Source: a virus. Taken from it: DNA of 64,000 nucleotides. How positions within the stretch are numbered: position 1 is the stretch's first letter; every line of letters begins with the position of its first letter. The notes below the pieces were generated by a model, which was not told the DNA's origin, did no database searches, and saw nothing but the letters and a program-made list of their open reading frames with translations. Made by a program: the position numbers and the translations under genes. The stretch spans positions 62,001-126,000 of IMG/VR virus record IMGVR_UViG_3300049218_000083, one strand, 5' to 3'. Shown piece after piece: positions 1,133-58,153 of this stretch.

Positions 1133-4100
1133 TACAGAACCTTCACGGATGTTGGAGAGATCGTTGTAGAGTTCTTCACAGTGGCCCCAGATGCCAACTG
1201 GATTGAACTACCCAACTGAGCATTATTTAGTGGAGCAACTGAAGCAGCTGCAACTGAAGCAACAGGTACACCATACCAATTAGTGATTGGGCTGATGACA
1301 CCGTATGAACCTGCGCTGACTCTGACCTGGACATAATGGTATCCGCGATAGCCATTGTACCAGTAGTCGAATGGATAATGCCAGAAGTCGAGAACATCGA
1401 TGTACGTAGAAACAACAACTGGTGCGCTTGGTGGAGCAACGTTTGCTGCTGGCTTCAATGCTGGAGCCGTGACTGGCTTTGGCAATGGTGGCAATGCTGG
1501 AGACGCAGTTGGTGGTTGAATAATCTGTGGTGTCAAAGTTGGGCTGAACCAGTAGTCGGTTTCTGGCGTCAACTTCATGGTTCCTGTGAACTGAGCGAAC
1601 AAGAATGGCTGTACAGAGATAGCCGTGGTTGCTGCATTCTGAACGACAGCTGGCACTTCAGTGTATGGCAATGAGTAAGTCTTGTCACCTTCGTTGATTG
1701 CCGCAGTATTTGAAATTAGGTTCAATCCCAATGGAGTCTGAATCTTGAATGGAGACATGGTTCCTTGCTGCAAGTAGCAGGTAAGATCCGTGCTCAAATT
1801 GTCGACATAACTGAAGTCACCGAAGTCATCTGCGATGATTCCATACTGTGGTTTTGGAGTTACACCGTCCTGATATGTCAATGTTTCTGCAGCCGCCTGT
1901 GACTCAAGCTGGCTCAATGCGCTGTAGTATTCAAGCTGGCTGATACGTGAGTCAAGGCTAGCGATATCCTTCATCGTGTATCGCTTGTTCTCAACATACT
2001 GTAGACCGATCTGTTCAACGTTTGCAGTGTAAGCTGGAACAGATACGATATACAAGGTCATAGCATCAGAAGAGTCAGCTGGCGCTGCTGGGAACTGGCT
2101 TGGTACACCTTCGACAACAACGAACTGACCATTCTTATTCAACATCAGCTTGTCTACACGTGGTAGATAGAACTGGTATGAAAGGACCATGGTGTTGTCT
2201 GGCTGTGGCAACTCTAGACCGAATAGGGATAGAGAAGCAACGCTGGTTGACAATGCGTTCGCACGTGTTGGACGGAAGTCAATAGAGTCACGAAGAGAGA
2301 AAGTTCCCTTGCTTGGTGAGTTGTAGTAAGGAATCAAACCAGCACTGTATACACTTGAGCTATATGAGTCAACGTCGAAGAAACCGTTTGCTGTAGCGTG
2401 CTGGAAGTATTGCAACATAACGACTGTCTGACCTGTTGGACCAGAGCATCCAGCTTTCAAGGTCAAAGACGCGAAGTCGTAGTAGTTGTCATTCTGTCCG
2501 CTGTTCAGATAGTAATTGCTGGTGATGTCAATTGCGTTGGTTGCGTTTGGCGCATAGTTGACGTTACCGGAATCGTAAACCTTGATGATGTTGAACACGT
2601 CAGGAAGGTACAGAGACTGGCTGGCACCTGGAGTCTTAGCAACAGCAGCCTTTGCCGTATCGACATACCAAACATAGCCGTTGGCAATATCGATGTACAC
2701 GTTGTTAGTGTTGGAGCCTGTCAAACCAACAACAAAGTTGCCGTTGAGATATGAGTCGGTAGAAGCAAGAACGACGTTGCTTGAGTTACCACAAAGTGTC
2801 TTGGAACGAACCACGCTGGTTGCGTTGTTCTGCTTGTTGGTGTAGTAGATGTCTGCTACGAATGCGCTTGAAGCAGAAGAGTAGATAACAACTTCGGTTG
2901 GAGATACCTGGTAAACACCGTTTCCTGATGTACCACCATGGAAGTTACGATCCATGACAAGGATTTCACCGTTGCTCAAGTTGCTTGACAGAGAGTTGGT
3001 GACTTGAACAATGAAGTTTGCGTTGGCGCCAATGTCAGTCAAGAACTGGCTTGAGAAGCCGAATGGGAATATCTGGCTGCCGGTCAATGACAACGTGAAG
3101 TTGCTGTTTGAGAAAGACGCGCCATAGTAACTTGAACGAGTAGTGAACGTCGCGTTAGCGATTGTTCCCTGTGCAATTGGAGACTGTGGCAACTGGAACA
3201 ACAGAGTGTTGAAATTAGTGTCGACCAACTGAGTGTTTCCAGTTGCGTCCTTACCAGCAAGCGCGATATCCATACATGCATTGTATGGGGTGGTGCCTGT
3301 ACCCTGGGTTGCGTAAGTGTTGCCTGTGGTGCTTGGGCTGACAACCAAGGTCTCAAGGTCTTTGATTCCGTATTGCAAACTGATCACAGAAGTGCTGTTT
3401 GCTGCGGTAGACAACTGGTTGTTGAACGTAGCCACGCCAGTTGCACTGTTGTAAGATACGATTACACGGTTGTCGATAAATGGGCCAGTCGTGATGGTTG
3501 CCAATACATTCGCGTATGCGTTCGCAGCAATACCGATGTATGGCGCACCAAGGTTTGCGCTGATAGTTGTACCAGACACCGCAGTCAGGGTGTTTGGTGT
3601 GATGTTCATGTTTAGGACGTATGCGTAGTAATCACCAAGTCCTAGATATTCGATATCACGAATCTGACCTGTACCGATTTTGGTTGCAGCGTATGCAGCA
3701 CCGGTTGCGTTGTTGATTGTGCCAGAACTTACAAGATGAAGATCAACGTTCTGGAACGCAGCGATGTTGAATGATCCAGTTGTGTTACCTGGGTGCAGGT
3801 TGGTGACGGTCAGAATGTTACCGAACTCGGTTGAGAAGCTGTAGTCAGTAATCGTGTTGGTTGACAATGCCTTGTCAGATGGAAGACGAGTCGTTCCAAC
3901 TGTGTTGTATTCGTAACCCTTGACGAAAGCCTCACCAGGAGAAATCACCAATGTGTACTGGTTTGCGTTTGCAGAGTTGATGTCAGCGGTTGCAATGAAT
4001 GGACGCACCGTGAAGTCGCCATTCGTATCGTAGGTGCGCTGTGCCAATGTTGCGTTGATTGTACCAAGGACCGGATAATCGATCTGGCTGACGATCAAAC

Positions 4101-30894: not shown

Positions 30895-31165
30895 GAGTGG
30901 CAGCTTATGAGGAACCCGGAAAGCTGCCGAAACCTGGTGAGAAATTACGCTGCTAGGCGGAATTCCTCAGATGCATTTTCAGTTGCATTTATACTGTTTT
31001 GCTTCATTTAGATGGTCGAACCACCAAGACGATAGCTTGTCTGTTGCCTTTACTTTTATCTCTTCCCGTCGAAAACTATTTCGCCCCCGAAGGTCGCCTA
31101 GCAGGGCGATAGTGGTGGAGGCGTCGGTTTCGCAACCGAGTCCGCAAAGCATTATAGCAAAGGAA
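30895..31165 (-). ncRNA. ssrA: Circularly permuted (two-piece) tmRNA
   Basis: Acceptor piece first: P2 strand CTTTGC (about 31147-31142), T-arm-like TCGG...CCGA, then CGCCTCC-A-CCA ending at 31113. A 24-base spacer follows with a TCGCC/GGCGA hairpin (31112-31089). The coding piece starts at 31088 with GGGGGCG, pairing 7 bp (one G-U) with CGCCTCC, then the tmRNA hallmark TTTTCGACGGG. GTAAAGG can pair with CCTTTGC as P2. The tag frame at 30986-30945 reads ATENASEEFRLAA then TAA, a ClpXP-type LAA end. A stem GGCAGCTT/AAGCTGCC near 30903-30932 closes the 3' region. CTAAATA at 31186-31192 could be its promoter. Confidence 0.9.
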
Positions 31166-31768
31166 TTACAACATTCTGTTCATTTTATTTAGAGATTCAT
31201 ATTCGGTTCTATAGAACTCTCTTCTTTCAATTTTATTTAGCCCCTCATCAAGATTTGTCAAAAGTCCACCATGAGCAACCAACCCAAATATGTCAATTAA
31301 CTTTGATTCATAGGATAATGCGTCAAGTTCGGAAATGTCAGTTATAAGTTTTACAACTTTTACTTCTTCACCAAAAGCCTCAATTTTTAATTTTATTTTT
31401 CTATGGGTCTCATTTCTATTTAATTCGTAACATCTATTACCCATACCCTTTCCAATGTAAAATGGCATATGTGTCATACCAAGAGTTGCGCCAAATGTAG
31501 TTTGCCCAGCTCTACCAATAGCAATTTTTTTAGTTGTATCTAAATGAGCATAAACATAATATTCTTTATTCGGATCTAATTCCAAATTCGAATACACAGA
31601 TTTTATATCTGTATCATAAATTTTTCTACAATTATCAATTATTTGTCTAACCTTTTCGTTTTTTGATGGTTTATTTGATATTTGGGCAAGTCGACCCTTG
31701 ACCTTACCGTAGTGTTCAAGTAACTTGACTGGGTCATCCCAGTCAAGTATAAATGTCTTTTCGTTCAT
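31166..31768 (-). CDS. GIY-YIG endonuclease (LEM3-like), AT-rich
   Basis: 200 residues. A GIY-YIG-type core reads YYVYAHLDT, a spacer, MPFYIGKGMGNRCYEL, NETHRKIKLKIE, then ALSYESKLI with the conserved Glu. Codon use is visibly more A+T-rich than the neighbours, which points to recent arrival. It sits between the tmRNA and a PTH2-like gene, as a free-standing homing enzyme would. Only four bases separate the start from the preceding stop. Confidence 0.75.
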   Translation of the reverse strand: MNEKTFILDWDDPVKLLEHYGKVKGRLAQISNKPSKNEKVRQIIDNCRKIYDTDIKSVYSNLELDPNKEYYVYAHLDTTKKIAIGRAGQTTFGATLGMTHMPFYIGKGMGNRCYELNRNETHRKIKLKIEAFGEEVKVVKLITDISELDALSYESKLIDIFGLVAHGGLLTNLDEGLNKIERREFYRTEYESLNKMNRML

Positions 31769-33004: not shown

Positions 33005-33081
33005 TGGCGCGCGAGGCGGGCATCGAACCCGCAACCTTCAGTTTTAGAGACTGCGCTCTAGCCAAGTTGAGCTACACGCGC
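33005..33081 (-). tRNA. tRNA-Sup(CTA), amber suppressor
   Basis: Class I tRNA with encoded CCA, D-arm AGCTC...GAGC, T-loop TTCGATG. Anticodon arm CAGT-CTCTAAA-ACTG: loop positions give U33 and anticodon CUA, which reads UAG. Acceptor has one T-T mismatch (GCGCGTG/CTCGCGC), and 27-43 is G-A. Separate from the main cluster; a CTAAATA motif (33092-33098) lies upstream. Confidence 0.8.
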
Positions 33082-51005: not shown

Positions 51006-51080
51006 TGGAGTGGTCGACAGGATTCGAACCTGCATAGGACAGTTTTGCAGACTGCCGCGTGACCTTTCCGCCACGACCAC
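51006..51080 (-). tRNA. tRNA-Cys(GCA)
   Basis: Acceptor GTGGTCG/CGACCAC, anticodon arm CAGT-CTGCAAA-ACTG, T-loop TTCGAAT, encoded CCA. Confidence 0.93.
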
Positions 51081-51088
51081 GTTGACTC

Positions 51089-51415
51089 TTAGCGCGCCAG
51101 GATCAGATTTTGATTTGGCACATCAATCTTGCGCTTGCCAAACATACGTTCATGGTGAACGATAACCTGATCATCAGGCTTGGCAATGAATACGATCTTG
51201 TCCAGGAACAGAGGGACGGCACCGTCAACCAATGTTGCCCACGGAAGGAAACCTACACCGATTTTGACTTGACCTGTCTTAGGATCCGGTTCGCCTGGCT
51301 GCGGAACAATCATCACAGCTTCGTCAACCTCGACAATAGTCTCGCTGACATTCAGGACGCGGCAAAGAAGCTCTTCGCCAGAAACCAACTTCACAATCTT
51401 TACATCGTCACTCAT
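51089..51415 (-). CDS. Sm-like beta-barrel protein
   Basis: 108 residues. VKIVKLVSGEELLCRVLNVS, then EAVMIVPQPGEPDPKTGQVK and PLFLDKIVFIAKPDDQVIVH resemble small phage Sm/LSM-like proteins often seen in T4-like phages. Possible RNA-binding role, relevant beside the RNA genes. Family call from the pattern. Confidence 0.6.
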   Translation of the reverse strand: MSDDVKIVKLVSGEELLCRVLNVSETIVEVDEAVMIVPQPGEPDPKTGQVKIGVGFLPWATLVDGAVPLFLDKIVFIAKPDDQVIVHHERMFGKRKIDVPNQNLILAR

Positions 51416-51424
51416 GATATCCCC

Positions 51425-51586
51425 TTAAAATTTGAACCTGACCTGTAACGGCATTCGCTTGTCACAGTGAAGATGGACATTATGCTTATCATCGACCGCG
51501 CGTTCGCACAGGACAAAAACATTTTCTCTGGTGATTGCACAACCAGAGAAAATGAGCAGTATGACCAACAAAACTATGTTGCGCAT
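51425..51586 (-). CDS. Small lipoprotein
   Basis: 53 residues from ATG 51586: MRNIVLLVILLIFSGCAITR, a signal peptide with an FSGC lipobox. The mature part has two more Cys. Could be an outer-membrane spanin or superinfection factor; undecided. Confidence 0.6.
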   Translation of the reverse strand: MRNIVLLVILLIFSGCAITRENVFVLCERAVDDKHNVHLHCDKRMPLQVRFKF

Positions 51587-51621
51587 ACAATTATGATAAC
51601 CTGGAATTGACGATGGGGAAA

Positions 51622-51697
51622 TGGAGCGGATGATGGGACTCGAACCCACGACGTTTTCCTTGGCAAGGAAATGCAATTGCCGCTATGCGACATCCGC
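51622..51697 (-). tRNA. tRNA-Gly(GCC)
   Basis: Acceptor GCGGATG/CATCCGC, anticodon arm TTTCC-TTGCCAA-GGAAA, encoded CCA. Confidence 0.92.
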
Positions 51698-51703
51698 GAA
51701 AGG

Positions 51704-51852
51704 AGTGCCCGAAGTGGGATTCGAACCCACAGTAAGCGTCGTGCATCACCTTTTCGGTTGCATCGACCTATACAAAGATACATTAATGCTGACTCGGACA
51801 TTCGCACAATGCGAACCCATGTTGCGTTTTGCCTGTTTCGCCATTCGGGCAG
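51704..51852 (-). ncRNA. Enlarged tRNA-Leu-like element, about 148 nt
   Basis: The ends are tRNA-like: TGCCCGAA pairs with TTCGGGCA, a Leu-like D-arm TGGCGAAACAGGCAAAACGC and a normal T-arm GTGGG-TTCGAAT-CCCAC are present. The 3' end is CTCC, not CCA. Where the anticodon and variable arms belong there are about 95 bases with extra hairpins (TTCGCA/TGCGAA; GTCG...CGAC). No anticodon is certain. It shares AATGTCCGAGTC with the element at 54435. Confidence 0.55.
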
Positions 51853-51881
51853 AGTGGTTGCGCGAAACATCTTTGTAAACC

Positions 51882-51956
51882 TGGTGCTCTCACTGAGAAT
51901 CGAACTCAGATCCCGTCCTTACCAAAGACGTATCTTGACCATTGGACGATAAGAGC
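51882..51956 (-). tRNA. tRNA-Thr(GGT)
   Basis: Acceptor GCTCTTA/TGAGAGC, anticodon arm CGTCT-TTGGTAA-GGACG, encoded CCA. Confidence 0.9.
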
Positions 51957-51960
51957 GAAC

Positions 51961-52033
51961 TGGTGGTTCATGAAGGAATCGAACCTTCGTATTGCCATGT
52001 CAAAGCAACGTATTCCCGCTATACGAATGAACC
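51961..52033 (-). tRNA. tRNA-Val(GAC)
   Basis: Acceptor GGTTCAT/ATGAACC, anticodon arm TTGCT-TTGACAT-GGCAA, encoded CCA. Confidence 0.88.
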
Positions 52034-52040
52034 AAAATCT

Positions 52041-52223
52041 TTAGTGAATTCCTAGCGCATGTAAATATGGCAGGAACTGTATTACCAACCAAACCACTAA
52101 AGCAGCAATGGCTACGCAGTTCAGGATATCCTTGAACGTTTGCTGGATTGGCGCTTTGTTTGCTAGATATAGCAAAATTCCAGCGAAGAAAATTACTGCA
52201 AGAATTGGTAGAATCGCGATCAT
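52041..52223 (-). CDS. Small two-helix membrane protein
   Basis: 60 residues from ATG 52223. Two hydrophobic helices (ILPILAVIFFAGILLYLA; ILNCVAIAALVVWLVIQF) separated by a short polar loop, resembling the Thivi_2564-type small membrane proteins. A holin-like role is possible. The only protein gene inside this part of the tRNA array that looks intact. Confidence 0.6.
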   Translation of the reverse strand: MIAILPILAVIFFAGILLYLANKAPIQQTFKDILNCVAIAALVVWLVIQFLPYLHALGIH

Positions 52224-52257
52224 AGTTTGTGTCTCAACATTATGTTTATCGAACAAT

Positions 52258-52334
52258 TGGTACCTCAGATGGGAGTCGAACCCACAGAAACTCATTTTTG
52301 AGACGAGTATGTTTGCCAATTACATCACTGAGGC
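52258..52334 (-). tRNA. tRNA-Leu(CAA), short variable loop
   Basis: Acceptor GCCTCAG/CTGAGGT (first pair G-U), anticodon arm CTCGT-CTCAAAA-ATGAG, five-base variable loop, encoded CCA. Short variable loop is unusual for Leu. Confidence 0.82.
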
Positions 52335-52357
52335 ATAGGTCAATATGTATCCAAAGC

Positions 52358-52443
52358 TGGCGGGAAGCTGACGAATCGAACGCCAACCGTTTCCAGTCGA
52401 TCTGCTTTCTAGACAGTCTTGAGCCCAGCCCAAATAACTTCCC
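52358..52443 (-). tRNA. tRNA-Ser(AGA)
   Basis: Class II. Acceptor GGGAAGT/GCTTCCC, anticodon arm CTGT-CTAGAAA-GCAG, long variable arm, encoded CCA. A34 would be expected to be edited or read broadly. Confidence 0.82.
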
Positions 52444-52447
52444 AATA

Positions 52448-52524
52448 TGGTGCCTCGTGCGAGATTCGAACTCGCAAAATTCTGGGTTTAAGTCAGACAC
52501 GTTTGCCAATTACGTCAACAAGGC
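52448..52524 (-). tRNA. tRNA-Leu(TAA), short variable loop
   Basis: Acceptor GCCTTGT/ACGAGGC, anticodon arm TCTGA-CTTAAAC-CCAGA, variable loop ATTTT, encoded CCA. Similar to the CAA gene. Confidence 0.82.
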
Positions 52525-52531
52525 GAATCGA

Positions 52532-52627
52532 TGGTACTCCATACAGGAATTGAACCTGCCCGTTGCAGCCAGTCCGGCCACTCTCGCGTGCTTATAAAAC
52601 ACACCCGCACGACCAGTGCTATGGAGC
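52532..52627 (-). tRNA. Class II-size tRNA, anticodon probably TAT (Ile)
   Basis: Acceptor GCTCCAT/ATGGAGT, T-arm GCAGG-TTCAATT-CCTGT, encoded CCA, 96 nt. The best anticodon arm is TGTGT-TTTATAA-GCACG (two G-U pairs), giving TAT, but the long variable arm is unusual for Ile and the D-arm is odd. Isotype uncertain. Confidence 0.55.
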
Positions 52628-52644
52628 ATATTATACTCTAAACT

Positions 52645-52730
52645 TGGCGGAAAGTACAGGAATCGAACCTGAACCCTTTAGAGTCAATCTGTTTAGCAAA
52701 CAGTTGCAGACCCAGTCTACATTACTTTCC
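52645..52730 (-). tRNA. tRNA-Ser(GCT), copy 2
   Basis: Class II. Acceptor GGAAAGT/ACTTTCC, anticodon arm CTGT-TTGCTAA-ACAG, encoded CCA. Same anticodon as 49880-49967. Confidence 0.88.
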
Positions 52731-52735
52731 AAATT

Positions 52736-52786
52736 TGGCGGATGGTGAAGTATAAGGCAGTTGTTTTACCGCTAAACTATAGGACC
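52736..52786 (-). pseudogene. Truncated tRNA
   Basis: 51 nt: a tRNA 5' half (GGTCCTATAGTTTAGCGGTA, then ACTGC-CTTATAC) joined directly to a CCGCCA 3' end. The anticodon 3' strand, variable loop and T-arm are missing, so it cannot be functional. Confidence 0.6.
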
Positions 52787-52791
52787 AAAAC

Positions 52792-52877
52792 TGGCGGAAG
52801 AATGACGAATCGAACGCCACCAGTTTCCCGGCAATCCGCTTTCAAGGCGGTTCCCATCCCAGATGAGTTATTCTTCC
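52792..52877 (-). tRNA. tRNA-Ser(TGA)
   Basis: Class II. Acceptor GGAAGAA/ATTCTTCC region, anticodon arm CCGC-CTTGAAA-GCGG, encoded CCA. Confidence 0.88.
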
Positions 52878-53159
52878 AAATTCTTTGTTCTGAAATTGCG
52901 CGTCCTGGTTCTAATCATGTGACAGTTAGAACAACGTATAACACATTTTTGCAATTTCGACTTTAATCTTTTTTAGGCTGGAATACATCATGGAGCCAAC
53001 CGTCTTGACTTTGGTTGTTTCATTGACATGATCAAATTCTAGCGCATGTGCATTGGCTTTGTAACCGCAGTCAACGCATCCTTTCATTCGCTTGTACCGA
53101 CCAATGATTGCTCTGGTACGTGCGGCTCTAATTTTACTTACGCTTGGATTGGTGCCCAT
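52868..53159 (-). pseudogene. HNH endonuclease broken by a one-base insertion
   Basis: From ATG 53159 the frame reads MGTNPSVSKIRAARTRAIIG, GCVDCGYKANAHALEFDHVN, SLKKIKVEIAK and then shifts at the T5 run 52946-52950 (A5 on the coding strand). Removing one base restores CVIRCSNCHMIRTRTRNFRT and a stop at 52870-52868 inside tRNA-Ser(TGA). The restored protein has the CxxCG, EFDH, and CxNCH of a small phage HNH enzyme. A sequencing error in the A-run is the alternative. Confidence 0.75.
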
Positions 53160-53170
53160 GGGAGTATAGC

Positions 53171-53245
53171 TGGTGTTCCTAGAGGGAATCGAACCCTCGT
53201 CGAGATCTTGAGAGGATCTCATCCTGGCCGCTAGAAGATAGGAAC
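53171..53245 (-). tRNA. tRNA-Glu(CTC)
   Basis: Acceptor GTTCCTA/TAGGAAC, anticodon arm AGATC-CTCTCAA-GATCT, encoded CCA. Confidence 0.87.
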
Positions 53246-53250
53246 ATAAC

Positions 53251-53326
53251 TGGGGCGATCGACGAGATTCGAACTCGCGCTGACTCTTTCACAGAGAGTG
53301 GTGCTTACCGCTACACTACGAACGCC
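53251..53326 (-). tRNA. tRNA-His(GTG)
   Basis: Acceptor GGCGTTC/GATCGCC (one mismatch), anticodon arm ACTCT-CTGTGAA-AGAGT, encoded CCA. Confidence 0.88.
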
Positions 53327-53332
53327 ATAAAC

Positions 53333-53406
53333 TGGTTCCTCGAGATGGGGTCGAACCACCGTTAACGATTTCAGAGACCGTTGTCCTGCCATTAGACGAT
53401 CGAGGA
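53333..53406 (-). tRNA. tRNA-Gln(CTG)
   Basis: Acceptor TCCTCGA/TCGAGGA, anticodon arm ACGGT-CTCTGAA-ATCGT, encoded CCA. It would read CAG. Confidence 0.88.
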
Positions 53407-53412
53407 ATAAAC

Positions 53413-53459
53413 TGGAGCGCGCCAGAGTGTTTGGCTCTGTAAAGTCGCGAGCAGCGCGC
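53413..53459 (-). pseudogene. tRNA-like remnant
   Basis: 47 nt with complementary ends (GCGCGC at each side), a CAGAG-CCAAACA-CTCTG hairpin and a CTCCA-type 3' end, but no T-arm and no U33. Probably a deleted tRNA. Confidence 0.4.
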
Positions 53460-53464
53460 ATAAA

Positions 53465-53540
53465 TGGTCGGAGTGGTGGGATTCGAACCCACGACCTCTC
53501 AGTTCCAAGCCGAGTCGTCTGGCCACTGACTTACACTCCG
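53465..53540 (-). tRNA. tRNA-Pro(TGG), copy 1
   Basis: Acceptor CGGAGTG/CACTCCG, anticodon arm CTCGG-CTTGGAA-CTGAG, encoded CCA. Confidence 0.92.
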
Positions 53541-53548
53541 ATAAACTT

Positions 53549-53632
53549 TGGTGCCCTCGATAGGAGTCGAACCTACACGTCTTTCGACACTGGCTTCTTA
53601 GACCAGCATGGCTGCCGTTACATCACAAGGGC
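53549..53632 (-). tRNA. tRNA-Leu(AAG)
   Basis: Acceptor GCCCTTG/CGAGGGC, anticodon arm CTGGT-CTAAGAA-GCCAG, short class II variable arm GTC-GAAA-GAC, encoded CCA. Confidence 0.85.
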
Positions 53633-53637
53633 AAATC

Positions 53638-53714
53638 TGGACCCGCCAATAGGATTCGAACCTACAACCATCCGCTTCGTAGGCGGAAGCTCTATCCAGT
53701 TGAGCTATGGCGAG
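53638..53714 (-). tRNA. tRNA-Arg(ACG)
   Basis: Acceptor CTCGCCA/TGGCGGG, anticodon arm TCCGC-CTACGAA-GCGGA, encoded CCA. A34 is normally edited to inosine by host TadA. Confidence 0.92.
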
Positions 53715-53748
53715 AATATTGTGGTAATGCTAGCTTGTTTACCATAGA

Positions 53749-53824
53749 TGGCACCCTCGATAGGAGTCGAACCTACGCGATCTTCGTTCGAAGCGAAGTC
53801 CCCGAATTCCCTCGGGTCGAAGGC
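53749..53824 (-). tRNA. tRNA-Arg(TCG)
   Basis: Acceptor GCCTTCG/CGAGGGT, anticodon arm CTTCG-CTTCGAA-CGAAG, encoded CCA. Confidence 0.88.
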
Positions 53825-53829
53825 ATAAT

Positions 53830-53906
53830 TGGTAGCGAGTGGCAGGATTCGAACCTGCGTTCTTCAGCTTATGAGACTGACGAGATGGCCTCTTCTCCAC
53901 ACCGCA
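53830..53906 (-). tRNA. tRNA-Met(CAT), initiator-like
   Basis: The GTGGAGAAG...CTCGTCAGTCTCATAA stretch mirrors bacterial tRNA-fMet, and the first pair (T1-T72) is unpaired as in initiators. Anticodon arm TCAGT-CTCATAA-GCTGA, encoded CCA. The acceptor stem has two further mismatches. Confidence 0.8.
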
Positions 53907-53910
53907 TAAT

Positions 53911-54240
53911 CGTGATAGTGTTTGTGTTAGATTTTCGAGAAGTTGTCAAGCTTCTATCTTTCCCAGCACCTCTAGTTGTTCAGGTTCACTTGACTCCGCA
54001 GGATGGCCGTCCTGCCTCAACATCAAGGAGAGTCTTTCACTCTCAGCACCGTCGCCTTCTGACTTTATGTGTCTACCGACTGTGCAGCGATCCCAGGCTG
54101 TTTCCATATCTGACCTGGTACTTTCTACCCTTACTCTAAATGCCGTCTACTCAAATATTGCGTATGGACTTTCGCAACTGCCTTTCCGCCGAAGGACGCG
54201 TCTTATCAGCCACAAAAACCCAACACAAACACTACAAACA
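53911..54240 (-). ncRNA. Unidentified large structured RNA A
   Basis: About 330 bases between two Met tRNAs without any plausible ORF. The ends pair: TAGTGTTTGTGTT (54234-54222) with AACACAAACACTA (53928-53916), 13 bp with no mismatch. Inside are several strong stems on the minus strand: CCTT/AAGG, TTGCG/CGCAA, CCAGG/CCTGG, GAGAGT-GAAAG-ACTCTC, GCAGGA-CGGCCA-TCCTGC, AGAAG/CTTCT. It is not recognisable as RNase P, tmRNA, 6S or SRP RNA. Large RNAs such as GOLLD or ROOL occur near phage tRNA arrays, but I cannot match this to either. Confidence 0.7.
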
Positions 54241-54243
54241 AAC

Positions 54244-54318
54244 TGGTGGTGATACTGAGAATCGAACTCAGGTTAATGGCTTATGAGACCACTGTCTTTG
54301 CCGCTGGACGATATCACC
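54244..54318 (-). tRNA. tRNA-Met(CAT), elongator or Ile2
   Basis: Acceptor GGTGATA/TATCACC, anticodon arm GTGGT-CTCATAA-GCCAT, encoded CCA. CAT could be Met or lysidine-modified Ile. Confidence 0.85.
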
Positions 54319-54323
54319 GAAAT

Positions 54324-54399
54324 TGGTCGAACTGGTTGGAGTCGAACCAACTCATCTGGGGTTTCAAGCCAGCGCTAAATCCACATCAGCTACAGTTCC
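54324..54399 (-). tRNA. tRNA-Phe(GAA)
   Basis: Anticodon arm CTGGC-TTGAAAC-CCCAG (C31-C39 mismatch), acceptor GGAACTG/CAGTTCG, D-arm AGCT..., T-loop TTCGACT, encoded CCA. Confidence 0.82.
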
Positions 54400-54405
54400 A
54401 AAATC

Positions 54406-54427
54406 GCTGGTTTTGAAATTGTTCCAG
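54406..54427 (-). terminator. Hairpin in tRNA array
   Basis: GCTGG-(12 bases)-CCAGC between the tRNA-like element at 54435 and tRNA-Phe. Possible processing or terminator stem. Confidence 0.35.
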
Positions 54428-54434
54428 CAAACAA

Positions 54435-54552
54435 GCATGTCAGGGTAGACTCGGACATTAACCCTTTTTCTTACGCATCTTTCCGGATTCAAAGTCCGGC
54501 GATAACGATCAGCATTCCCGCTCTCCACGAGCAGGCGCATGAGGACATGACA
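54435..54552 (-). ncRNA. tRNA-like element with Gln-type anticodon hairpin
   Basis: Ends CATGTC/GACATG pair, and a perfect anticodon-like arm CCGGA-CTTTGAA-TCCGG (TTG) lies in the middle. The D-side holds a GCTC-GTGGA-GAGC hairpin. At the T-arm position is AGGGT-(14 nt)-ACCCT whose loop contains AATGTCCGAGTC, also found in the element at 51704. No CCA end. Not a standard tRNA. Confidence 0.5.
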
Positions 54553-54557
54553 TAATA

Positions 54558-54634
54558 TGGTACTCGTGACAGGAGTTGAACCTGCAACATTCTGGTTCTA
54601 AGCCAGACGCGTCTGCCAATTGCGCCACACGAGC
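54558..54634 (-). tRNA. tRNA-Leu(TAG), short variable loop
   Basis: Acceptor GCTCGTG/CACGAGT, Leu-type D-arm GTGGCGCAATTGGCAGACGC, anticodon arm TCTGG-CTTAGAA-CCAGA, five-base variable loop, encoded CCA. Confidence 0.85.
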
Positions 54635-54648
54635 ATAAGAGAAAAGAA

Positions 54649-54716
54649 GGACGCCGATGTCACGATTTGCGCGGACTAGGAGGTTATGAAGCTCCGTACT
54701 GCTAAAGACGACGTCC
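54649..54716 (-). pseudogene. Degenerate tRNA-like element, CAT-type
   Basis: 68 nt: GGACGTC pairs with GGCGTCC, and GGAGC-TTCATAA-CCTCC resembles an anticodon arm, but the T-arm is not canonical and CCA is missing. Between it and 54812 is a possible 24-residue ORF (54727-54801), which I do not trust. Confidence 0.35.
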
Positions 54717-54811
54717 TCTGCTATAGTCAACCGGAGTTGCTGTAGCCTACCATCTCAGCCAAGGCACTTGTCAAAGCGATCAAATCATCAACATCAATCA
54801 TACTTGTAATT

Positions 54812-54887
54812 TGGAACACCGAGTAGGCATCGAACCTACATTCTCCTAGTTCAAAGCCAGGCGTCCTACCAATTAGACGATCAGTGT
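54812..54887 (-). tRNA. tRNA-Gln(TTG)
   Basis: Acceptor ACACTGA/TCGGTGT, anticodon arm CCTGG-CTTTGAA-CTAGG, encoded CCA. Confidence 0.9.
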
Positions 54888-54893
54888 ATAATC

Positions 54894-54970
54894 TGGCGCA
54901 ACCGACGGGATTCGAACCCGCACCGTCTCCCGTGACAGGGGAGAGACCTAGCCAGTTGGTCTACGGTTGC
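54894..54970 (-). tRNA. tRNA-Asp(GTC)
   Basis: Acceptor GCAACCG/CGGTTGC, anticodon arm CTCCC-CTGTCAC-GGGAG, encoded CCA. Confidence 0.93.
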
Positions 54971-54977
54971 ATAAATT

Positions 54978-55055
54978 TGGTGGGCCGCCAGGGATTCGAA
55001 CCCTGAGTCTCGGTGCTTAAAAGGCAGGTGATTTTTCCAGTTAATCTAGCAGCCC
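54978..55055 (-). tRNA. tRNA-Lys(TTT)
   Basis: Acceptor GGGCTGC/GCGGCCC, loop CTTTTAA giving TTT; the anticodon stem is weak (three pairs). T-arm normal, encoded CCA. Confidence 0.8.
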
Positions 55056-55061
55056 AAATTT

Positions 55062-55136
55062 TGGTAGGTCTAGAAGGATTCGAACCCTCGTTTTCCGCTA
55101 ATCAGGCAGACGTCCTTGCCTCTGGACGATAGACCC
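55062..55136 (-). tRNA. tRNA-Ile(GAT)
   Basis: Acceptor GGGTCTA/TAGACCT, anticodon arm TCTGC-CTGATTA-GCGGA, encoded CCA. Confidence 0.92.
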
Positions 55137-55143
55137 ATAATCT

Positions 55144-55302
55144 TTACTTGGTGGACAACGCTGTAATCAGCGCCAACAAGTTTTCGTATCTTCTACCAGC
55201 GCTGTCAAGATAGTAGGTGACCATCTTGCCATTGACTTTCTGTCTGCAGCGCGTGATATTGTGACCATCGACAACGATTTGTTTCTTCTGCACAAATTCC
55301 AT
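55144..55302 (-). CDS. Small protein within the tRNA array
   Basis: 52 residues from ATG 55302, preceded by GGAGA at good spacing. Begins MEFVQKKQIVVDGHNITRCR and continues VNGKMVTYYLDSAGRRYENL. No family recognised. Beta-strand pattern and charge look like a real protein. Confidence 0.6.
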   Translation of the reverse strand: MEFVQKKQIVVDGHNITRCRQKVNGKMVTYYLDSAGRRYENLLALITALSTK

Positions 55303-55361
55303 AATGGTCTCCGATTCTTTTTGGCTACAGTCTTTCTACTTGACAATGCTTGCATTTCATA

Positions 55362-55437
55362 TGGTGGGTCCGCAGGGATTCGAACCCTGATCTCGCTGGT
55401 TAAGAGCCAGATATAATAGCCGTTATACGACGAACCC
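55362..55437 (-). tRNA. tRNA-Lys(CTT)
   Basis: Acceptor GGGTTCG/CGGACCC, anticodon arm CTGG-CTCTTAA-CCAG, encoded CCA. Confidence 0.9.
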
Positions 55438-55443
55438 GAAACT

Positions 55444-55519
55444 TGGTGCCCTTGACAGGAGTCGAACCTGCAACCTGCGGGATAGGAATCCGCTGCTCTT
55501 TCCATTGAGCTACAAAGGC
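55444..55519 (-). tRNA. tRNA-Arg(CCT)
   Basis: Acceptor GCCTTTG/CAAGGGC, anticodon arm GCGGA-TTCCTAT-CCCGC (31-39 mismatch), encoded CCA. Confidence 0.85.
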
Positions 55520-55562
55520 ATGGAGTGCAAGGAGGAATACACCTCACGATGCACATAGAAAT

Positions 55563-55639
55563 TGGTACAGCCGACCGGAGTCGAACCGGCATTGCACAGG
55601 GTGAAAACCTGGGTTCCTAAGCCATTAGAAGACGGCTGC
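55563..55639 (-). tRNA. tRNA-Glu(TTC)
   Basis: Acceptor GCAGCCG/CGGCTGT, anticodon arm CAGG-TTTTCAC-CCTG, encoded CCA. Confidence 0.87.
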
Positions 55640-55650
55640 ATAGACGAAAT

Positions 55651-55725
55651 TGGAGCTCCCACTCAGAATCGAACTGAGTTCTCAGGATTACAAAACCAGC
55701 GCATCGCCACGTATGCTTTGGGAGC
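55651..55725 (-). tRNA. tRNA-Thr(TGT)
   Basis: Acceptor GCTCCCA/TGGGAGC, loop TTTGTAA giving TGT, anticodon stem with two T-T mismatches, encoded CCA. Related to tRNA-Thr(CGT). Confidence 0.82.
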
Positions 55726-55731
55726 AGAAAT

Positions 55732-55807
55732 TGGAGCGGACGACCAGACTCGAACTGGCATGACTCTGATTTGGAAGACCAGGGCACAACCTTTATACCA
55801 CATCCGC
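55732..55807 (-). tRNA. tRNA-Gly(TCC)
   Basis: Acceptor GCGGATG/CGTCCGC, anticodon arm CTGGT-CTTCCAA-ATCAG, encoded CCA. Confidence 0.9.
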
Positions 55808-55820
55808 GAAAACAAGTGAA

Positions 55821-55841
55821 ATGCGTGCGATCGCACGCAGT
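55821..55841. terminator. Perfect palindrome TGCGTGCGATCGCACGCA
   Basis: An 18-base palindrome immediately after the small ORF stop (minus strand). It can form an 8-bp stem or be a protein-binding site. No long U-run follows. Confidence 0.45.
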
Positions 55842-55842
55842 C

Positions 55843-55968
55843 TTAGACCTTCTCGGTGCTACCGATCAGGTCATCGGTGCCTTTATCTTGGCGACCGAAT
55901 GTAGGAGAAATAGACAGTGATATCGTTTGTTCAAAATGCTTACTATCGCATTGAGTAACGATACCCAT
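55843..55968 (-). CDS. Small protein within the tRNA array
   Basis: 41 residues from ATG 55968, preceded by a strong TAGGAG site six bases away. Starts MGIVTQCDSKHFEQTISLSI. No family recognised. The good ribosome-binding site supports it. Confidence 0.55.
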   Translation of the reverse strand: MGIVTQCDSKHFEQTISLSISPTFGRQDKGTDDLIGSTEKV

Positions 55969-56001
55969 GATTGTCTCCTAAGTTAATGAAGTGAAAGAAA
56001 T

Positions 56002-56079
56002 TGGTCGGGGTTAAGGGATTCGAACTCTTGACCTTCTGCGCCCAAGGCAGACGCTCTAACCAGACTGAGCTAAACCCCG
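56002..56079 (-). tRNA. tRNA-Pro(TGG), copy 2
   Basis: Acceptor CGGGGTT/AACCCCG, anticodon arm TCTGC-CTTGGGC-GCAGA, one T-stem mismatch, encoded CCA. Same anticodon as 53465 but a different body. Confidence 0.87.
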
Positions 56080-56086
56080 AAGAAAC

Positions 56087-56173
56087 TGGTGCATTGTGAT
56101 GGATTCGAACCACCGTTGCCCATAGGACGGCTGATTTACAGTCAGCTTGTTTAAACCACTCACACAACAATGC
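56087..56173 (-). tRNA. tRNA-Tyr(GTA)
   Basis: Class II. Acceptor GCATTGT/ACAATGC, anticodon arm GCTGA-CTGTAAA-TCAGC, encoded CCA. Confidence 0.93.
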
Positions 56174-56181
56174 AGAAACTT

Positions 56182-56257
56182 TGGTGCCCTTGGTAGGAAT
56201 CGAACCCACACCGAATCGGGTAGAAGCCGAACGCATTATCCGTTTTGCTACAAGGGC
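56182..56257 (-). tRNA. tRNA-Arg(TCT)
   Basis: Acceptor GCCCTTG/CAAGGGC, anticodon arm TCGG-CTTCTAC-CCGA, encoded CCA. Confidence 0.9.
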
Positions 56258-56270
56258 AGGGAAATTAAAT

Positions 56271-56379
56271 CGGTTCCATAGACAGGGATCAAACCTGCAA
56301 ATTCTTCAGCAGGACACTTGGCTGCAATACACAAGTGGAAGTCCTCTGCCCAAGACACCGTACCGTTTGTTACCATGAA
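56271..56379 (-). ncRNA. Enlarged tRNA-like element ending CCG
   Basis: Ends pair as TTCATGG/CTATGGA, the T-arm GCAGG-TTTGATC-CCTGT is near normal, but the 3' end is ACCG, not CCA. The centre is a long hairpin CACTTG-(11 nt)-CAAGTG extended by GGA/TCC, with no clear anticodon loop. 109 nt in all. Confidence 0.45.
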
Positions 56380-56398
56380 ATACATAACCAAATTTAAC

Positions 56399-56473
56399 TG
56401 GCGGGATGCGAGGGATTCGAACCCCCATAACTAGTTTTGGAGTCTAGAGTCCTAGCCATTGGACGAGCAACCC
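56399..56473 (-). tRNA. tRNA-Trp(CCA)
   Basis: Acceptor GGGTTGC/GCATCCC (one mismatch), anticodon arm CTAGA-CTCCAAA-ACTAG, encoded CCA. The upstream HNH gene ends inside it, using a TAG in its D-arm. Confidence 0.88.
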
Positions 56474-56802
56474 AATTTTGCTTTACCTCTTTTCTTCAGA
56501 TGAACATGGCCTTTCTGAAAGAGGTTGACTTTACGAGCAGCGCGAAGGTTGCAACGCAAATGTGAAAATGATATGTTGTTCATATCCCAGAACAACTCCG
56601 TCGGTGTCGCAGTATCTTGCCAAGCAATTTTATGCTCTAAGCTCAACTGACCGAACTTGATTTTCTCACCACAATGAAAGCACACATCGAAACCTGCTTT
56701 CTGCGCGAGATCGAATATAACCATGTTCCATAACTTTCTAGAAGCTGCATGAAAGCTCATACCGAGCTGCGCAGATTTCTTCTTGAAAGTGCTGGTTCCC
56801 AT
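56452..56802 (-). CDS. HNH endonuclease in the tRNA array
   Basis: 116 residues. CFHCGEKIKFGQLSLEHKIA followed by LFWDMNNISFSHLRCN is an HNH core (EH, N, H). N-terminal SAQLGMSFHAASRKLWNMVI is shared with the relic at 57687-57990. The C-terminal residues and TAG stop lie within tRNA-Trp, so insertion was precise or the end has been captured from the tRNA. Confidence 0.8.
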   Translation of the reverse strand: MGTSTFKKKSAQLGMSFHAASRKLWNMVIFDLAQKAGFDVCFHCGEKIKFGQLSLEHKIAWQDTATPTELFWDMNNISFSHLRCNLRAARKVNLFQKGHVHLKKRGKAKLGCSSNG

Positions 56803-56820
56803 GATGTATCCTCTGTAAAT

Positions 56821-56893
56821 TGGTGGGATTGATGGGAGTTAAACCACGTGACCTCTCACCGTTAAGTGAGCGCTCTACACTGAGCTACAACCC
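56821..56893 (-). pseudogene. Degenerate tRNA-Val-like gene
   Basis: 73 nt with acceptor GGGGTTG/CAATCCC and CCA, but the D-loop lacks its GG, the T-loop is TTTAACT, and the anticodon loop has only six bases (CTCAC-TTAACG-GTGAG). Likely non-functional or highly unusual; AAC would be the nearest anticodon. Confidence 0.55.
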
Positions 56894-56934
56894 CGAAGCG
56901 ACGGTTCTCTGCTCTAGTACCGACAACACGTAAT

Positions 56935-57014
56935 TTGGTGGACCGCCAGGGATTCGAACCCTGCTAGTTTCCTCGGTGCAAGCGAGGTGAACACCCCAAG
57001 CATTCCCGCAGCCC
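56935..57014 (-). tRNA. tRNA-Ala(TGC)
   Basis: Anticodon arm CCTCG-CTTGCAC-CGAGG, acceptor GGGCTGC/GCGGTCC, encoded CCA; D-arm slightly enlarged. Confidence 0.87.
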
Positions 57015-57019
57015 AAAAC

Positions 57020-57094
57020 TGGTAGTCCGTGACGGGATTGAACCGCCGACCCTCTCCGTGTAAAGGAGACGCTCTCCCGCTGAGCTAACGGACC
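57020..57094 (-). tRNA. tRNA-Val(TAC)
   Basis: Acceptor GGTCCGT/ACGGACT, anticodon arm TCTCC-TTTACAC-GGAGA, encoded CCA. Confidence 0.93.
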
Positions 57095-57106
57095 ATGGGA
57101 TAGAAT

Positions 57107-57166
57107 TGGCAGAGTCGTCTGGTAATCGGCGCGACCCGATACCCTGGCTTGCAACCAGACGACTCT
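57107..57166 (-). ncRNA. D-arm-less mini tRNA-like element
   Basis: 60 nt ending in GCCA. AGAGTCGTCTGG at the 5' end pairs over 12 bases with CCAGACGACTCT. Inside are CTGG-TTGCAAG-CCAG (anticodon-like, GCA) and ATCGG-GTCGCG-CCGAT (T-arm-like). The two views of CTGG are exclusive, so it is either a long hairpin or a tRNA lacking its D-arm. Confidence 0.5.
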
Positions 57167-57174
57167 ACCATTTT

Positions 57175-57250
57175 TGGCTCCGTGTGCAGGATTCGAACCT
57201 ACGAATACTCCGTTAACAGCGGAGGCTATTACCACTCTAGTCAACACGGA
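57175..57250 (-). tRNA. tRNA-Asn(GTT)
   Basis: Acceptor TCCGTGT/ACACGGA, anticodon arm CTCCG-CTGTTAA-CGGAG, encoded CCA. First tRNA of the array in transcription order. Confidence 0.93.
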
Positions 57251-57640
57251 AGAAACTTTCCTTTCTTTTATGCTGTGTATTTTGGTTAAGAAAACGATAC
57301 AGCACTGCGTAGTGTACGCATACCAGAATCAGGTGGCGAAGGCAGCCAAGACAAGACAAAAACATTGCTGGTTTGATGGGATCCAGCGCCCAATAGCAAA
57401 TGGGTCCTGCTTGCGGCAAGACCCTTAATCTTGTTCCAGCGGTTCGTGTTTACGAGTAACCGCGTGCTGGGTCCGGTGAGAACGTCACCGAAAGTTGCGT
57501 GGGAGAATCCGGGAAGCATTCTTCCTAACAGCTAGAATTAGCTGACAGGTACTTCATGCGGTGCTTCTACCACCCCAAATCATCAGCGCGGATTTCTCCG
57601 CGAGTAGAACAATCATGAGTTAGCAAGACTGTAATTACTA
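57251..57640 (-). ncRNA. Unidentified large structured RNA B
   Basis: About 390 bases upstream of the tRNA array with no credible ORF and many perfect stems on the minus strand: CGCGGA-GAAA-TCCGCG (GNRA loop), CCTGTCAGCTA/TAGCTGTTAGG, GGTGA/TCACC, GCGGTT/AACCGC, GGGTC/GACCC, TGCGTA-CAC-TACGCA. Two CTAAATA motifs lie just upstream (57645-57651, 57672-57678), so it would be the first product of the array transcript. I cannot assign it to a known RNA class. Confidence 0.65.
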
Positions 57641-57644
57641 GAAA

Positions 57645-57678
57645 TATTTAGCTTGATGTTACCATTCAGTGTATTTAG
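57645..57678 (-). promoter_or_regulatory. Paired CTAAATA promoter-like motifs
   Basis: GCTAAATATTT (57645-57651) and CCTAAATACAC (57672-57678) on the minus strand, ahead of structured RNA B and the tRNA array. They match the motif found upstream of late genes here. Confidence 0.5.
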
Positions 57679-57686
57679 GAAATTCA

Positions 57687-57990
57687 AGTTCCTGAAATTA
57701 AACAGGATTTAGTTTCTAGGATCTTTCTACCCTTAAATGCACCAGCTTTCATGTTACACTTGAAGTGGGAGAACGCTATGTTGTTCAAAATCCCAGAACA
57801 ATTCAGGATTTCTGCGCCATGGAATCTTCTGTTCACATTGGAAACACACGTCTTTTCCAGTCTGTTTTACCAGCATGAACAGTATCATCTTTCTCAGTTT
57901 AGCCTGAGCCTTCGACATAGACATGCCAAGATAGATTTCACATTTACGTTGTGGAACGAATTGCTCAATTATCAAGAAACTCATCATCAC
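57687..57990 (-). pseudogene. HNH endonuclease relic
   Basis: Reads KCEIYLGMSMSKAQAKLRKM, VKQTGKDVCFQCEQKIPW, NPELFWDFE, parallel to the intact gene at 56452-56802 (LGMSFHAASRKLWNM, FDVCFHCGEKI, TELFWDM). About 15 residues around the catalytic LEHK are deleted, and a one-base shift near 57783 moves the NIAFSHFKCNMKAG end into another frame. Dead copy. Confidence 0.75.
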
Positions 57991-58153
57991 CCAACAGGTC
58001 TTCAACTCGATGACGATTAAACCGTTCACGCTTGTAAGGCTCTCGAGATACAACCTCACCACGCTCACGCACAGTTTTCTTCTTTCCACCGGATCGATTT
58101 TGTCGACCAGGCTTCTGATAATCGTCAGAGTTAGTGTTTCGTTGGTCCGCCAT
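57965..58153 (-). CDS. Small charged protein
   Basis: 62 residues, Arg/Lys/Asp/Glu rich (GKKKTVRERGEVVSREPYKR), probably disordered. Its end overlaps the start of the HNH relic. No family recognised. Confidence 0.6.
   Translation of the reverse strand: MADQRNTNSDDYQKPGRQNRSGGKKKTVRERGEVVSREPYKRERFNRHRVEDLLGDDEFLDN

Follow-up and report, generated by a model that had tools for sequence, protein, structure and literature searches.

A 389-nt structured RNA heads the tRNA array of a T4-like freshwater virus of bacteria. We incline to the view that it is the 5′ leader of a phage tRNA operon expressed late, and that it represents, in shortened and diverged form, a family of leader RNAs not described before. 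The DNA analysed here, called the window, is a 64-kb part of a 166,743-base IMG/VR virus record, whose gp32-type single-stranded-DNA-binding protein shares 47-48% identity with its counterparts in T4-like cyanophages and a Pelagibacter phage. On its minus strand, the element covers 57251-57639, from a predicted transcription start to the base before tRNA-Asn(GTT) (57175-57250), the first of about 40 tRNA genes in an array that reaches 51006 (51006-57250, minus strand). A first-pass annotation had rightly placed the element at the array head; nearly all of the extent that it gave, 57251-57640, stands, with the start moved to 57639 by the late-promoter rule.

The element folds on the tRNA strand

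In the 389-nt minus-strand RNA, the mean pair probability exceeds 0.8 for most helices. A GNRA-capped 6-bp hairpin, CGCGGA-GAAA-UCCGCG, lies at 57587-57602 (pair probability 0.91-0.99) and a perfect 9-bp hairpin, GGGUCUUGC-CGCAA-GCAGGACCC, at 57402-57424 (1.00), while the predicted fold further contains a helix CAGCUA/UAGCUG (57544-57529), a 7-8-bp hairpin (57492-57472) and a helix UGCGUA/UACGCA (57320-57306), all on the minus strand. The perfect stems noticed in the first pass, the GNRA-capped one among them, are thus borne out, and the fold goes beyond what shuffled sequences reach. The MFE z-score is -3.85; a second shuffle test gave -4.1, the lowest among 93 windows of 390 nt. Likewise, 103 pairs have a probability above 0.8, compared with 46 ± 20 in shuffles (maximum 92, so that 0 of 100 reach 103) and a maximum of 100 among 90 genic windows, none of which attains the element's count. 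On the plus strand the number is average (52 such pairs versus 50 in shuffles), and a plus-strand RNA was rejected because its well-determined pairs stay at shuffle level. Since the fold exceeds chance on the minus strand only, we assign the structure to the strand that carries the tRNAs.

Coding and family searches agree with a non-coding RNA of no known family, as had been proposed. None of the three open reading frames, previously judged spurious, has a Pfam or PHROGs family above noise, and with no conserved protein found in the stretch, the idea of a structured leader of the tRNA transcript is strengthened. Rfam assigns no family to the element at gathering score in a scan of the whole window, nor to 57200-57800 at a permissive E<=10. 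A degenerate tRNA within the element was rejected, as no tRNA model matches even at E<=10. Only chance matches came from blastn against phages, where they were short, and from searching the DNA of 18 T4-like records directly. Separately, 16 nt of the leader (57332-57347) are antisense to E. coli 16S rRNA 721-736 in 15 of 16 letters, as happens in about 2% of shuffles.

Late-type promoters set its predicted start

In Aeromonas phage Aeh1, the putative late promoter is CTAAATA, beginning at -12, and we set predicted starts by this spacing rule (PMC1524935). The two promoter-like motifs previously seen just upstream of the element are indeed both CTAAATA on the minus strand: a distal copy at 57672-57678 with a predicted +1 at 57666, and a proximal copy within GCTAAATA at 57645-57651 with a predicted +1 at 57639. 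The window holds 14 copies of CTAAATA, all on the minus strand, versus 2.9 expected (0 of 100 shuffles). For eight of these motifs, the Aeh1 rule puts the predicted start 7-66 nt ahead of a gene, namely 7 nt for tRNA-Pyl, 11 nt for tmRNA and 15-66 nt for six protein genes; from the predicted start to tRNA-Asn it is 389 nt, and the extra stretch is the element. We predict the motifs upstream of the element to be T4-type late promoters of the Aeh1 form. As this spacing puts the proximal start at 57639, the RNA would run from the promoter to tRNA-Asn, and its bounds, the promoter start and the RNase P site of the tRNA, would define an RNA of 389 nt.

The tRNA-Pyl gene (33005-33081, minus strand; ARAGORN) has a CUA anticodon and encodes a possible amber suppressor. 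Like the permuted tmRNA gene (30896-31217, minus strand), it has a separate late-type promoter.

Upstream of the leader lies a decayed HNH homing-endonuclease gene in two frames (57684-58089, minus strand), recognized by two matches to phrog_23251 (57754-58089, E-value 1.4e-08, profile positions 6-42; 57684-57836, E-value 0.0045, profile positions 68-84). An intact relative (phrog_23251) sits within the tRNA array at 56452-56802. The gap between tRNA-Asn and tRNA-Val (57104-57172, minus strand) contains a 16-bp near-perfect hairpin with one G-U pair around a smaller hairpin, which resembles an inverted duplicate of part of a tRNA. Two further gaps of the array, 51486-51615 and 55776-55970, show strong folding on either strand, with z as low as -4.6.

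Related phages carry leaders at the head of their tRNA arrays

The D arm of tRNA-Asn is unusual, and a search pattern taken from it retrieved phages of three kinds, all with tRNA arrays: L091, L090/L092 and L093, the last extended as L098. L103, a phage contig that had been binned in a MAG, came from scanning bacterial genome contigs. Two other candidates were rejected: L094, found with a 19-nt exact pattern from the element, is a chance match and lacks tRNAs, and L100, found with a pattern from the boxA region, has that pattern inside a coding gene, again by chance. Single-query searches with the neighbouring MazG and RuvC-like proteins returned no relatives. Synteny with the window is seen in L091 (51% identity in MazG over 106 aa, 42% in a secreted protein, tRNA-Asn first) and likewise in L103, whose leader also precedes tRNA-Asn at the array head.

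In all four phages a non-coding leader precedes the first tRNA, 662 nt long in L091, about 570 nt in L103, 545 nt in L098 and 434 nt in L090, and each leader begins at a sigma-70-like promoter. Folding z-scores for the L091, L098 and L090 leaders range from -3.1 to -4.6. Judged by alignment, the L091 and L103 leaders are clearly homologous (64% identity; Smith-Waterman score 347 versus a shuffle maximum of 85). RNAalifold on these two gives 108 pairs, 21 of them changed on both sides, in a structure picked from the same data. The core that they share contains strongly conserved, largely unpaired stretches such as CAUACAGACCGAAAAG. Around boxA, the L098 leader is also homologous to that of L091 (83 versus 71). 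The L103 leader has no Rfam family; in blastn against phage DNA in INPHARED the L091 and L098 leaders have no match, and in blastn the L090 leader matches by its tRNA alone.

Several of these leaders carry a boxA, whose gamma-proteobacterial consensus is GYTCTTTAANA (PMC5725501). L091 matches it perfectly with GCTCTTTAACA at 8939-8929, and TGCTCTTTAACA is identical in the E. coli rrnH leader. At the corresponding place, L098 has GCTTTTTAACA and L103 has GCTCTTTTACA, each one base off the consensus. L090 offers a weak candidate with three mismatches, and the consensus was not found in the window leader.

The window element probably belongs to the same family

Does the window element belong with these leaders? 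It occupies the same position as those of L091 and L103, at the array head before tRNA-Asn in a syntenic region. Direct comparison of the whole leader with those of the relatives was not significant, so covariance models were built for three domains of the relatives: a 101-nt core (R1), the 3′ domain (R2) and the boxA domain (R3). With filters off, the best R1 match in the whole 64-kb window falls inside the element, at 57257-57358 on the minus strand (15.4 bits, E 0.31), followed by one of 8.9 bits; the best chance scores in other sequences stay below 10. The fast search missed this match. Of the cells in the fitted alignment, 96% are paired, and changes on both sides affect 9 of the 18 pairs, which the fitting itself favours. 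A test of the two cores against the window leader by sequence only scored above 1000 of 1000 shuffles and ranked the core first among 654 windows, with a close runner-up (66 versus 64). Letters common to the window and the relatives' cores are GUCU-GG-UGCC, GGUA before hairpin 2, AUAC in hairpin 3 and AAAAG before the closing strand. We hold it quite likely that the window segment, a probable diverged copy of the multi-hairpin core, is homologous to the cores of L091 and L103. With the best R1 match in the element and compensatory changes in its pairs, we regard the element as probably belonging, in shortened and diverged form, to a new family of leader RNAs of tRNA arrays; and as part of the fold is found again at the corresponding position in related viruses, the RNA element is probably real.

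Other measures of the core are weaker. It adjoins tRNA-Asn in the window and lies 234-344 nt upstream of tRNA-Asn in L103 and L091. Folded alone, the window core is no better than shuffles (z -0.93), a junction like its own is also formed by 38 of 500 shuffles, and in the full-length fold competing long-range pairing disturbs part of it. The boxA and 3′ models reach only chance level in the window (best 6.4 bits for R3 and 7.4 for R2). Across 50 phage records, R1 matches occur in L091 and L103 only; L098 lacks a clear R1 core, though its leader is homologous to that of L091 in the boxA part. As for conservation of structure, which the first-pass annotation had named as one test of its proposal, it is found for the 3′ 100 nt, where compensatory changes separate the element from L091 and L103. 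For the 5′ 280 nt no homologue was detected, and the structure there therefore rests on thermodynamics.

Discussion

The picture that we favour is as follows. Transcription would start at the T4-type late promoter, with +1 predicted at 57639; the first 389 nt would fold into a stable multi-domain RNA, the last 100 nt being the conserved core; and RNase P would cut at tRNA-Asn and free the leader, a step in keeping with established tRNA biology. Its task would most likely lie in cis, in the expression and processing of the long untranslated tRNA transcript: with the leader in place, a transcript of several kilobases would have a 5′ end that is folded and protected, and polymerase and processing enzymes would be helped along it, the role that leaders play in rRNA operons. 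Untranslated long transcripts are exposed to Rho and ribonucleases, to which rRNA operons answer with boxA and a structured leader (PMC10250234). That the boxA of the relatives sits in a structured leader upstream of tRNAs points to a like solution there. The promoter at the leader is of the late type in the window and of the host type in the relatives. Since the window array, tmRNA and tRNA-Pyl all stand on late-type promoters, the promoter change in the window phage may have come with replacement of the early part of the leader and loss of boxA.

Could the freed RNA act in trans instead? In the style of GOLLD, ROOL, rnaC or rnaD, it would be a stable RNA for which the operon supplies promoter and RNase P release and whose target is the host or the ribosome, a reading that we consider possible, if rather unlikely. 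GOLLD and ROOL are large, ornate, structured RNAs of phages and prophages, of unknown function and often beside tRNA islands (PMC12286853), and the element, too, lies at a phage tRNA island; its pairing probabilities are unusually well defined for 389 nt. Unlike them, however, it is a leader under a T4-type late promoter, the Rfam scans found no similarity to either, and GOLLD is often over 800 nt long. The tRNA cluster of T4 likewise includes two stable RNAs, rnaC and rnaD (species 1 and 2), structured and of unknown function, but these are 139 and 119 nt long and lie at the 3′ end of the cluster. The element shows no similarity to them (Smith-Waterman scores 19 and 28, shuffle means 24.7 and 24.1, p 0.98 and 0.20), nor do they resemble the core model, and R1 gives chance scores on the T4 tRNA cluster. 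The leaders of the relatives, moreover, always lie in cis at the array head, with boxA, and this argues for a cis task.

A more specific version of the cis role can be offered only tentatively, and we doubt it somewhat. The T4-like freshwater phages would have an rRNA-operon-like leader family built on a conserved multi-hairpin core, with boxA in some. By loading the antitermination machinery of stable RNAs, or by mimicking it, these leaders would let an untranslated tRNA array of several kilobases be transcribed and processed as an rRNA operon is, and the window copy would have been rewired to a late promoter and freed of boxA. As in bacterial rRNA operons, a long structured leader precedes an untranslated stable-RNA operon, and boxA is present in L091 (exact) and in L098 and L103 (one mismatch); the window leader differs in lacking boxA, in its late phage promoter and in having tRNAs rather than 16S downstream. 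With boxA dropped, the core may act on polymerase directly. The put RNA of HK022, structured and located at the start of a phage transcript, makes polymerase resist terminators, a parallel that we draw as a mechanistic analogy only.

The leader might also be regulatory, riboswitch-like or attenuator-like, with a signal deciding transcription of the array, which seems quite improbable to us. The largely unpaired, strongly conserved core stretches of L091 and L103 would fit such a role. In the more distant phage L090, a hairpin with a T run stands between a core-like segment and the array (1371-1495, plus strand, by eye), which suggests an attenuator, but the core match there reaches just 8.3 bits and the terminator scan does not call the hairpin. 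Nor does the window have a terminator immediately before tRNA-Asn, and the sole same-strand terminator-like site in its leader (57424-57402) has a weak T run. Least credible is a non-functional remnant, in which decayed genes, tRNA or homing-endonuclease debris fold by accident: a decayed HNH gene does lie directly upstream and the exact sequence is known from one phage only, but strand-specific pairing exceeds all controls, the element fits exactly between promoter start and tRNA, and the relatives' homologous leaders show compensatory changes.

Compared with the first-pass annotation, the strand specificity, the exact promoter class with its predicted start and the homologous boxA leaders of relatives are new. 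There are few descriptions of how long untranslated tRNA arrays are transcribed and processed in phages. If a conserved leader RNA heads such arrays, joined in several relatives by an rRNA-type boxA, that would offer an answer open to testing, and the leader family would add a new family of structured RNAs beside GOLLD, ROOL and T4 rnaC and rnaD.
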